In this document: one piece after another, positions 60,455-64,000 of the stretch | Position numbering within the stretch: position 1 is the first letter of the stretch | Layout of the letters: each line of letters begins with the position of its first letter | NCBI RefSeq assembly: GCF_025725645.1 | Contig: NZ_CP107007.1 | Location: forward strand, 682,001 to 746,000 | Length of the DNA stretch: 64,000 nucleotides | From: Halomonas sp. GD1P12 | Lineage (GTDB): Bacteria; Pseudomonadota; Gammaproteobacteria; Pseudomonadales; Halomonadaceae | Direction of reading: 5' to 3' | Program-made: the position numbers and the translations under genes | Notes under the pieces: generated by a model | Seen by the model: the letters and a program-made list of their open reading frames with translations, nothing else | Told to the model about the DNA's origin: nothing | Database searches by the model: none

Positions 60455-60508
60455 AGAGCCTTATCAAAGCCTTCGCGGCCGCGCTTACACTGCTTGAGAG
60501 ATACCGCC

Positions 60509-62086
60509 ATGACCGACATTCACGCCCACAAGATTCTGATCCTCGATTTCGGCTCCCAGTACACCCAGCTGATCGCCCGCCGCGTGCGCGAAATCGGCGT
60601 CTATTCCGAAGTGCGCGCCTTCGATATCACCGAAGAGGAGATCCGCGAGTACAACCCGAACGGCATCATCCTCGCCGGCGGCCCGGAATCCGTGACCGAG
60701 CTCGAATCCCCGCGCGCACCGGCGTGCGTATTCGAAATGGGCCTTCCGATCTTCGGCATTTGCTACGGCATGCAGACCATGGCCGAGCAGCTTGGCGGCA
60801 AGGTGGAAGGCTCGCAAAAGCGCGAGTTCGGCTACGCCCAGATCCAGATCGACGAAGACAACGCGCTGTTCAAGGGCATCAAGGACCATGTGGACGCTGA
60901 ATCCGGCAAGGCGCTTTTGGACGTATGGATGAGCCACGGCGACAAGGTGGCCCAGGCCCCCGCCGAGTTCACCGTGACCGCCTCCACCCCGAGCTGCCCG
61001 ATTGCCGCCATGGTGTGGGAAGAGAAGCAGTTCTACGGCGTGCAGTTCCACCCGGAAGTGACCCACACGCTGCAGGGCCAGCGCATCCTCGAACACTTCG
61101 TGCTGGATATCTGTCAATCCGAAAAACTCTGGACCCCGGCGCAGATCATCGAAGACCAGGTGCAACGCGTGCGCGAGCAGGTAGGCGACCGCCACGTGTT
61201 GCTCGGCCTCTCCGGCGGTGTGGACTCTTCCGTGGTCGCGGCACTTCTCCACAAGGCGATCGGCGACCAGCTCACCTGCGTGTTCGTCGACAACGGCCTG
61301 CTGCGCAAGGACGAAGGCAACCAGGTAATGGAAACCTTCGCCAGCCACATGGGCGTGAAGGTGATCCGCGTCGACGCCGAGGACCTGTTCCTCGATAAGC
61401 TCAAGGGCGAAAACGACCCGGAAGCCAAGCGCAAGATCATCGGCAACACCTTCATCGACGTGTTCGACGACGAGGCCAGCAAGATCGAAGGCGTCGAGTT
61501 TTTGGCCCAGGGCACCATCTACCCGGACGTGATCGAGTCCGCCGCCTCTAAAACCGGCAAGGCGCACGTGATCAAATCCCACCACAACGTGGGCGGCCTG
61601 CCGGAAACCATGAAGCTCAAGCTGGTCGAGCCGCTGCGCGAGCTGTTCAAGGACGAAGTGCGCAAACTCGGCCTCGAACTCGGCCTGCCGTATGACATGG
61701 TCTACCGCCACCCCTTCCCGGGGCCGGGCCTCGGCGTGCGGATTCTGGGCGAAGTGAAAAAAGAGTACGCCGACATCCTGCGCGAAGCCGACGCCATCTT
61801 CATCGAGGAACTGCGCGCCTCCGGCTGGTACGAGAAAACCAGCCAGGCGTTCGCCGTGTTCCTGCCGGTCAAATCCGTCGGCGTGGTCGGCGACGGCCGC
61901 CGCTACGAATGGGTGATTGCCCTGCGCGCCGTGGAAACCATCGACTTCATGACCGCCCGCTGGGCGCACCTGCCCTATGAGCTGCTGGAGAAGGTGTCCA
62001 ACCGGGTGATCAATGAGTTGGAAGGGGTTTCGCGGGTGACTTATGATGTCTCCAGTAAGCCGCCGGCTACTATTGAGTGGGAGTAG
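60509..62086 (+). CDS. guaA: GMP synthase (glutamine-hydrolysing)
   Basis: Protein of 525 residues, exactly the E. coli length. It aminates XMP to GMP. Glutaminase domain (~1-205) with catalytic cysteine in [15 protein letters not shown] (~87) and [11 protein letters not shown] (His/Glu). ATP-pyrophosphatase P-loop [13 protein letters not shown] (~235). Dimerisation domain at the end. ATG at 60509 matches the usual start. The last ~25 codons use a visibly different codon set (ttg, ggg, gtt, act, tat, gat, agt) from the strongly biased rest. This fits replacement of the 3' end by an integrated element. Confidence 0.97.
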
Positions 62087-62118: not shown

Positions 62119-62154
62119 TTAAGGTCGCTATTTTTTTAAAAATAGTGACCTTAA
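62119..62154. terminator. bidirectional terminator between guaA and the island genes
   Basis: A 17-bp stem TTAAGGTCGCTATTTTT / AAAAATAGTGACCTTAA with one mismatch and a two-base loop, with T and A runs on the two sides. It ends guaA and the converging 211-residue gene. Confidence 0.85.
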
Positions 62155-62175: not shown

Positions 62176-62811
62176 TCAATTAAGTTTGAGGTAGTGACAA
62201 GGTGTCGTTATATCCAAAATATCAATGACTCTATCAATTGTATACTTCTCATCAAGTCCAATTTTAAAAGTAGCGTTGCTTGAGTAAAAGAAATCGAAGT
62301 GGTTTAGTGGATGGTAATCTTTATCTTGGTTAGCCTCATCATGATCAACACGTAAGTAACCGTCTTCATAAAAGAATAACTCTCTAATTAAAAGCCAAAA
62401 ATCTCTATTATCGGCACTGCTATCTAGAATTGGACTAGCAAAATCGAATATATCTTCCCCATGCATTGTATCGTCTCTCGATATAAAAGCTAAAGCTTCC
62501 GAGGTCAAGAGATTATCGAGTTCAATATCATTCGCTGTCAAAAATTTAAGTCTTTCATTATCAATAATAACTTTAAAAGGAAAGTTTATAGTAAAAATTT
62601 TTTCTGAACTTTCAAAAACTAAACGGCTCATTTTTGATACTTTTAAAAAAAGCTTCTCTTCAGATTGAACTGACTTGCCAGGTGGTTCGTATATTAGCAT
62701 TATTTTTATAGATTCTAGAAGAATACGCACAGCATCCTGTTTCTTTCTTATGGGAGTGAAGAAAAAACGTGCTTGATGGCGATCTAGTATAAATTCGTAA
62801 GCTTTTGACAT
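62176..62811 (-). CDS. hypothetical protein, small partner of the SF1 helicase
   Basis: Protein of 211 residues that I do not recognise with certainty. No signal peptide, no membrane segment; acidic, with a segment GYLRVDHDEANQDKDYHPLNHF followed by FDFFYSSNATFKIGLDE near the C-terminus. The D/H-rich stretch could be a catalytic or metal site; it recalls, from memory only, small DUF2290-like proteins next to helicases. It begins six bases after the helicase stop, with no good ribosome site, so translation is probably coupled. AT-rich (much lower GC than the host), suggesting transfer. Ends at the terminator after guaA. Confidence 0.7.
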   Translation of the reverse strand: MSKAYEFILDRHQARFFFTPIRKKQDAVRILLESIKIMLIYEPPGKSVQSEEKLFLKVSKMSRLVFESSEKIFTINFPFKVIIDNERLKFLTANDIELDNLLTSEALAFISRDDTMHGEDIFDFASPILDSSADNRDFWLLIRELFFYEDGYLRVDHDEANQDKDYHPLNHFDFFYSSNATFKIGLDEKYTIDRVIDILDITTPCHYLKLN

Positions 62812-62817
62812 ATTAAA

Positions 62818-64000
62818 TCACAAGTATTTATAGTTGTCGGCAATAATTCTTTTTATGTCTTCTCGACTGCTAGTTTCGTCAATATTTCCATTTCCATGAT
62901 GTATCTCAATGAGCCCATGAGCCATACTTCTAAACTCAGGTGCTATACCCGCATCTTCGCAGGCCAGCTCAATTAGGTCGTAAAGTGATATATTTTGTGA
63001 GCTATAATCAATTGACGTTTTGTCAACTTCGTTCTCACCTGGAACTTTAATTGTCATTTTTCCTTCATTATTAATTTCTTGGATACCACGATGAATATAA
63101 GGCAAGATGTTAGAGTTTTCAGTCTCTGAAACAACTAAGAAAGTTTTAAGAAAAGATCTAGTTAGCATCATATATAGTGCATTTCTGAAGTTATGATTAT
63201 TGTTTATTTTTTCAGCGATACAAATTATAAAAGGAAATTCTAAACCTTTTACATTGTTTTGGTTGCTGATAAATAAAGCATCGCGATCATATACTTTACT
63301 TTCATATGCTTTATTAACAGACCAGTCGAAGTTCCGGCCTATATGCAGCTGAAGTCTATCAGCTAACTGATAAGAACGTCTTGATGGGTGAATAAATATT
63401 ACGCCAATATCAGCAGGCTTAACAGTCGGGTGTTCCTCTTTAATATGAGCAATTGCATCAATTATATTGTCTACTACTCCAGAATAGTCGCTGTACTCAA
63501 TTATCTCTATACTCGGTGAGCTATCATGATCTATATCTTCAAATCTTCTTAATGGCTCTCTCTTTAATGCTACATGTTCATTATCAGCTTCATTTTCAAC
63601 TATGTAGCCACATGATTTCCATTCATTTTCGTCTAACCATCTTAGCTTTTTATCTTCAAAAAGACCCATCCCTAACCCATGCGCGAACATTAAAGTACGT
63701 GGGTCTGTTCTATAACATTTGCTTAATAAGAAGTCTGGTGTTACTTCAGATATAATTCTATCGTCAAATATACTCTGAAAGATATCACCAGCTATATATA
63801 TATTTTTCTTCGTTACTTTTGAGCATAGTTCGAAGAAAGATTCTGGGAAATCTTGACTCTCATCTACCAGCATATAGTCAAATGCAGGCCCGAGGCTCTC
63901 TATTTTATTATCTACTAAAGCTAGTGCTGCTTTACAAGCCTCATCAAAACCGTAATGTCTTGAGTAGGTATGGAATGGGATTCCGTAAAAATCACAGATA
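62818..64000 (-). CDS. UvrD/Rep-like superfamily 1 helicase, C-terminal part (partial)
   Basis: 393 residues are visible; the frame stays open to the right edge (frame of 63999) and the N-terminus with Walker A is outside. Motifs in order: II in FDYMLVDESQDFPESFF, III in IYIAGDIFQSIFDD, IV in LSKCYRTDPRTLMFAHGLGMG, V in NNVKGLEFPFIICIAEK, and VI-like in RNALYMMLTRSFLKTFLVV. These are the UvrD/Rep arrangement. Motif VI is weak, as the usual VALTRA is LTRS. A C-terminal acidic part (~270-393) has no match I know. AT-rich, six bases from its small partner; likely an island-borne ATP-dependent helicase. Confidence 0.85.
   Translation of the reverse strand, partial: ICDFYGIPFHTYSRHYGFDEACKAALALVDNKIESLGPAFDYMLVDESQDFPESFFELCSKVTKKNIYIAGDIFQSIFDDRIISEVTPDFLLSKCYRTDPRTLMFAHGLGMGLFEDKKLRWLDENEWKSCGYIVENEADNEHVALKREPLRRFEDIDHDSSPSIEIIEYSDYSGVVDNIIDAIAHIKEEHPTVKPADIGVIFIHPSRRSYQLADRLQLHIGRNFDWSVNKAYESKVYDRDALFISNQNNVKGLEFPFIICIAEKINNNHNFRNALYMMLTRSFLKTFLVVSETENSNILPYIHRGIQEINNEGKMTIKVPGENEVDKTSIDYSSQNISLYDLIELACEDAGIAPEFRSMAHGLIEIHHGNGNIDETSSREDIKRIIADNYKYL

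Follow-up and report, generated by a model that had tools for sequence, protein, structure and literature searches.

The last two genes of the window, by which we mean the whole stretch of 64,000 nucleotides from Halomonas sp. GD1P12 that was analysed, encode a UvrD-like superfamily 1 (SF1) helicase and a small partner protein of 211 amino acids (aa), and this pair is the subject of our report. An earlier note on the same DNA had described the two genes as tightly spaced, AT-rich and next to a likely island junction, and had proposed that they form an undescribed defence module. Indeed, both genes lie on the minus strand, the small open reading frame (ORF) and the helicase frame are separated by six bases, and the G+C content of this stretch is 34-35%, vs 62-65% in the preceding three kilobases (kb). 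The edge of the window cuts the helicase gene; the full gene, which the note had wanted to see, was obtained and encodes 671 aa (Table 1).

The motifs expected of such a helicase are found in the protein (GLSGTGKTE, DESQDF, GDIFQ, KGLEFP and LTRSF; the Walker A lysine is K203), its Pfam matches are UvrD-type domains, and the closest solved folds to its model in a structure search include UvrD, Rep, PcrA and AddAB. The protein passes the NCBIfam model NF053713 (STM2767 family DEAD/DEAH box helicase) with 935.4 bits over residues 3-669, the curated cut-off being 550. We disagree with the note about motif VI (LTRS), which it considered unusual. Since R559 and S560 are invariant among 63 aligned helicase sequences, this motif is normal for the family. 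We also observed that the helicase model is similar to human Schlafen 11 and 14, nearly as much as to UvrD.

The small partner passes NF053714 (STM2766 helicase-associated protein) with 203.7 bits over residues 3-209 (curated cut-off 70), and zero Pfam or PADLOC families match it at E values up to 1. NCBIfam treats the two proteins as matched families, with no function stated. The note had suspected a metal or nuclease-like site in a segment rich in aspartate and histidine. This segment is the best-conserved part of the partner family, and the invariance of R154, D156, D158, H167, P168, H171, D173 and K183 in 103 of 103 aligned partner sequences, ours among them, supports the suggestion. In the AlphaFold2 model of the partner (predicted local distance difference test, pLDDT, 92.6; predicted template modelling score, pTM, 0.89) the invariant polar residues sit on three successive strands (153-157, 170-174 and 182-186) and on the loop between two of them. 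We regard R154-x-D156-x-D158 ... H167-P-x-x-H171-x-D173 ... K183 as a candidate active site. A relationship of the partner to the TumE/DUF6516 toxins was considered but is not supported by the profiles: the hhalign score of 15.7 (from a shallow set with five TumE sequences) is below the maximum of 19.2 among 60 shuffled versions.

A profile built from 20 partner proteins was run on one-per-species genomes, where it finds 68 loci, and on viral contigs, where it finds 5. The note had recommended a check of co-occurrence: a helicase gene lies directly upstream, on the same strand, at 65 of the 68 partner loci. In two of the three exceptions the partner lies at a contig end, and in the third (L090) it is truncated beside an apparent transposase gene. 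The gap between the two genes, which rests on approximate gene starts, is -20 to +16 bases in 57 of the 65 loci, exactly -4 in 17 and above 100 in four. Where carrier genomes were searched whole (20 of the 68), each contains one helicase above the cut-off. In the helicase tree (63 sequences) eight phylum labels are intermixed; they range from Bacillota to Aquificota and Cyanobacteriota, and several come from metagenome-assembled genomes. Yet the partner is rare: among 146 relatives it is found in its own genome and one other, and in a phylum sample of 398 genomes in its own genome only.

The AT-rich insert begins directly 3' of a gene that we take to be guaA, a name given from its sequence and not via a family search, and the end of the window falls inside the insert. 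DNA homology to five same-genus genomes breaks off 4 bases or less from the guaA stop codon; hence the junction, which the note had called likely, is genuine. The C-terminal 358 aa of guaA are matched in 39 of 41 same-genus genomes, its own genome counted. We opened the slot behind guaA in five of the 41 genomes searched (G006, G024, G027, G034 and G039), and the DNA that follows varies among them. It encodes Septu PtuA and PtuB in G006 (473 and 290 bits), an adenine methyltransferase and a DpdB-like gene in G024 (319 and 80 bits), a type I methyltransferase and S subunit in G027 (864 and 431 bits) and two moderate defence-family matches in G034, while G039 carries a gene read as a recombinase plus one more, with no strong PADLOC match. 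The right flank is common to the Halomonas genome under study, G006 and G024; the other three genomes are matched at the left flank only. It seems that the 3' end of guaA is a site where short defence cassettes are exchanged in this genus. Partial guaA copies are also present ~29 kb (G036) and ~16 kb (G019) downstream of guaA, which suggests that islands have inserted at its 3' end.

In Escherichia coli the pair occurs in 32 of 5426 genomes, always on the chromosome, as judged in a search mode that detects close copies only. The E. coli copies among the matches listed share 82-83% identity with the copy on the Salmonella plasmid, and some of them are already annotated as STM2767/STM2766. In all three E. 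coli contexts opened (of the 32) the pair comes after a prophage tail-fibre-assembly gene, which is broken in two of the three contexts. One element is at ssrA, where an AbiTii-domain gene lies next to the pair; the others are at prfC and tRNA-Thr. Plasmids carry the pair in Acinetobacter, Lactococcus, L. paracasei, Pantoea and Salmonella; on the L. paracasei plasmid it adjoins a type I restriction-modification (R-M) system, and on the Lactococcus plasmid methylase and helicase genes. The Salmonella IncHI2A-type plasmid pS2122_1 (L111) combines the pair with a chromosomal-looking hin-fljBA region, an IS3-family transposase gene lying between the two.

The note had also suggested looking for the pair at defence islands. 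At a threshold of 1e-15, 264 neighbour proteins match far more PADLOC families than 132 controls from the same genomes: 133 and 131 families in neighbour batches of 133 and 131 proteins, vs 6 in the controls. That family counts equal protein counts may be chance or the effect of a cap, and the count of families is not the number of defence neighbours, since one protein can match many families. The proteins scanned represent 264 of 340 picked neighbour ORFs (76 were left out, from L085 onward, viral contigs included) and 132 of 139 control ORFs; the ORFs came from a simple script, and the control sites were picked by hand at round coordinates of the same contigs. The neighbour families among the matches listed include type I, II, IIG, III and IV R-M models, AbiEi, AbiD, GajB, SoFic and a phospholipase effector, together with general models such as CARF/RtcR, DinG and dGTPase. 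The control proteins match AbiEi, SspH, mad8 and dCTPase.

The nearest described system is Helicase+DUF2290 (Rst_HelicaseDUF2290, PA1372-PA1371 type, Rousset 2022), and an excerpt of PMC11637435 gives this label to PA1372-PA1371. It shares the gene order of our pair, with the helicase first and a partner of similar size close downstream on the same strand, as seen in 7 of 7 DUF2290 plasmid records opened, and it is likewise plasmid-borne. The helicase profiles of the two systems align over 560 columns, most of the N-terminal part included (hhalign E 3e-44). The best PADLOC model for our helicase is PDLC03002 'Helicase', given without a threshold, with 105.6 bits (next best 37), as compared to 988 and 1094 bits on two DUF2290-linked helicases; we identified this model as the Helicase+DUF2290 helicase from the E. 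coli plasmid protein scoring 988 bits, which adjoins a DUF2290 protein of 277 bits by PADLOC. A DUF2290 gene is present in 7 of 349 phylum-sample genomes, and in 6 of these 7 it lies beside one of the best matches of the STM2767 model below its cut-off.

The two partner families have in common only the signature RxDxD...HPxxH...K/R, within an aligned stretch reading R-x-D-x-D ... H-P-x-x-H ... K/R-I. They have diverged much further than the helicases: the hhalign probabilities are 71% and, with deeper alignments, 55% (44-46 columns), and the score of 36.5 compares with a maximum of 20.1 in 60 column-shuffled versions. The 49 DUF2290 sequences all have R136, H151, H155 and R165, and nearly all keep D138, D140 and P152; the invariant D173 of the STM2766 partner is without counterpart in the alignment. 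Unlike the Helicase+DUF2290 partner, ours is missed by PF10053 and by the PADLOC DUF2290 models. One branch separates the STM2767 and the DUF2290-linked helicases with a support of 100 (Shimodaira-Hasegawa-like approximate likelihood ratio test, SH-aLRT) in an unrooted tree of sets that were gathered by separate queries, no intermediates being sought. Because the helicases align and the partners share a signature, yet DUF2290 models miss the partner, our pair appears to be a sister to Helicase+DUF2290 that would work alike, but falls outside that system by its partner model. On Lactococcus plasmid pLLD17C (L112) a DUF2290-type pair and a gene annotated as abortive infection are ~1.1 kb apart.

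The remaining features of the locus are collected in Table 1. The inverted repeat between guaA and the partner gene is likely a bidirectional terminator; it is absent from the computed list of repeats. The AT-rich part stops ~0.7 kb or less past the helicase start. Next is a sequence that repeats part of a Fic gene; genes for a pseudouridine synthase and a complete Fic-domain protein come after it, and then a HipBA pair. Apart from the helicase and its partner, only two ORFs in the insert reach 100 aa: one runs antisense to the helicase, and the other, of 112 aa, matches no family. No integrase was seen in the insert. Two stretches to its right match the intact Fic-domain gene 1.9 kb onward, over 77 bases (96%) and 72 bases (85%), as would result from duplication of a Fic gene and decay of the copy.

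Table 1. Features at the guaA junction and beyond the window; positions are those of the window unless marked C1 or L002
Feature	Position	Strand	Basis or remark
guaA (guanosine monophosphate, GMP, synthase)	60494..62086	+	ORF list; chromosomal anchor, 3' end is left edge of insert
AT-rich inverted repeat, two 15-base arms, between guaA and partner gene	62121..62152	.	read by eye in sequence
STM2766-family small partner, 211 aa	62176..62811	-	NF053714 match
UvrD-like SF1 helicase, STM2767 family, C-terminal 393 of 671 residues	62818..64000	-	gene continues beyond window to C1:746833
Full-length helicase, 671 aa	C1:744818-746833 (L002:1818-3833)	-	
Fic repeat piece	C1:747319-747468 (L002:4319-4468)		
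Intact Fic-domain region	C1:749034-750257 (L002:6034-7257)		
HipA/HipB toxin-antitoxin pair	C1:750343-751915 (L002:7343-8915)		3.5 kb past helicase

In our opinion the two genes probably form a defence module that has moved horizontally and acts against phages and plasmids, and that is a sister lineage of Helicase+DUF2290. The defence role proposed by the note is well supported by genomic context, because defence genes occupy the guaA slot in several of the related genomes opened, the pair is carried on prophages and plasmids, and its neighbours are rich in defence families. Regarding the mechanism, the most likely arrangement that we infer, as to sensing, activation, enzyme activity and phage phenotype alike, is one in which the helicase serves as sensor and the small protein as effector. 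The UvrD-like helicase would load onto abnormal replication or recombination DNA produced by the invader, and its ATP-driven translocation would activate or position the partner. The partner may act via a site formed by R63, R154, D156, D158, H167, H171, D173 and K183. It would most likely be a metal-dependent nuclease or another enzyme acting on nucleic acids, directed either at the DNA of the invader or at arrest of the host cell.

A different division of labour can be imagined, where the partner is a regulator or a loading factor and the helicase itself unwinds or displaces replication or transcription complexes of the invader, as could be compared with HelD or Rep. We consider this rather unlikely, as the invariant set of R, D, D, H, H, D and K, partly common to DUF2290, exceeds what binding usually needs. 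Nor should it be forgotten that the pair may chiefly restrict plasmids or other replicons, through sensing of copy number or replication, with an anti-phage effect being secondary. This draws on the sister system: according to excerpts of PMC4410645, once PA1372 is lost in Pseudomonas aeruginosa the SOS-inducing plasmid pNUK73 no longer carries a fitness cost, and the transcriptional changes and high rep expression tied to it disappear. However, our pair is itself plasmid-borne, and the prophage sites in the three E. coli contexts fit phage exclusion, as does the activity of the sister, since the helicase and DUF2290 protein from P4-like satellites inhibit phage T7 according to PMC9122126, which also places Helicase+DUF2290 on prophages and satellites. 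A mainly plasmid-directed role is thus, in our judgement, unlikely. It is very improbable that these are ordinary accessory DNA repair genes with no role in defence; the presence of UvrD, Rep, PcrA and AddAB among the nearest solved folds would agree with repair, but rarity, mobile carriers and defence-type surroundings do not.

Returning to the defence module, a bolder proposal can be made, although we offer it tentatively and with some doubt. The STM2766 and DUF2290 partners may constitute one superfamily of small effector enzymes, whose site R-x-D-x-D / H-P-x-x-H / K-R would be new to solved structures and which would be activated when runaway replication is sensed by their helicase, a UvrD-like, Schlafen-like protein. 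If true, helicase-triggered immunity against phages and plasmids would have a widespread branch that has so far gone unrecognised. In any case, a pair found under many phyla with no function attached is now tied to a known defence system, whose mechanism is not explained in the portions of the literature consulted, and the residues for testing are named in both proteins. Since loss of the sister helicase relieves a plasmid burden in Pseudomonas, the pair is useful as a second lineage for asking what such helicases sense.

In the literature searched, STM2766 was not met, STM2767 appears only in Salmonella typing, deletion or genome-diversity work, and no direct test of the pair was found. The family names existed before; the defence link, the kinship with DUF2290 and the candidate site were not met in that literature, which did not take in the work on lactococcal plasmid defence, and are what our analysis adds. 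The word 'undescribed' in the note was half right: the families carry no stated function, but NCBIfam already pairs both of them and Helicase+DUF2290 is related.

The comparison with named systems can be summarized accordingly. Both proteins score above the curated cut-offs of the NCBIfam STM2767/STM2766 families, and the helicase matches PDLC03002 of Helicase+DUF2290 at a score far below that of DUF2290-linked helicases; the profile search that the note had called for did return names, though neither a DUF2290 nor a Gabija membership. Gabija likewise couples a UvrD-like helicase (GajB) with a defence partner (the GajA nuclease), but GajB models give 28 bits or less on our helicase, and the partner is without PADLOC or Pfam match. 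Hachiman HamB is a superfamily 2 (SF2) helicase, and HamA/HamB models are not among the PADLOC matches listed for either protein. The two-gene logic is nevertheless shared with Hachiman, in which, as an excerpt of PMC12278908 describes, the HamB helicase is the sensor and the HamA nuclease the effector.
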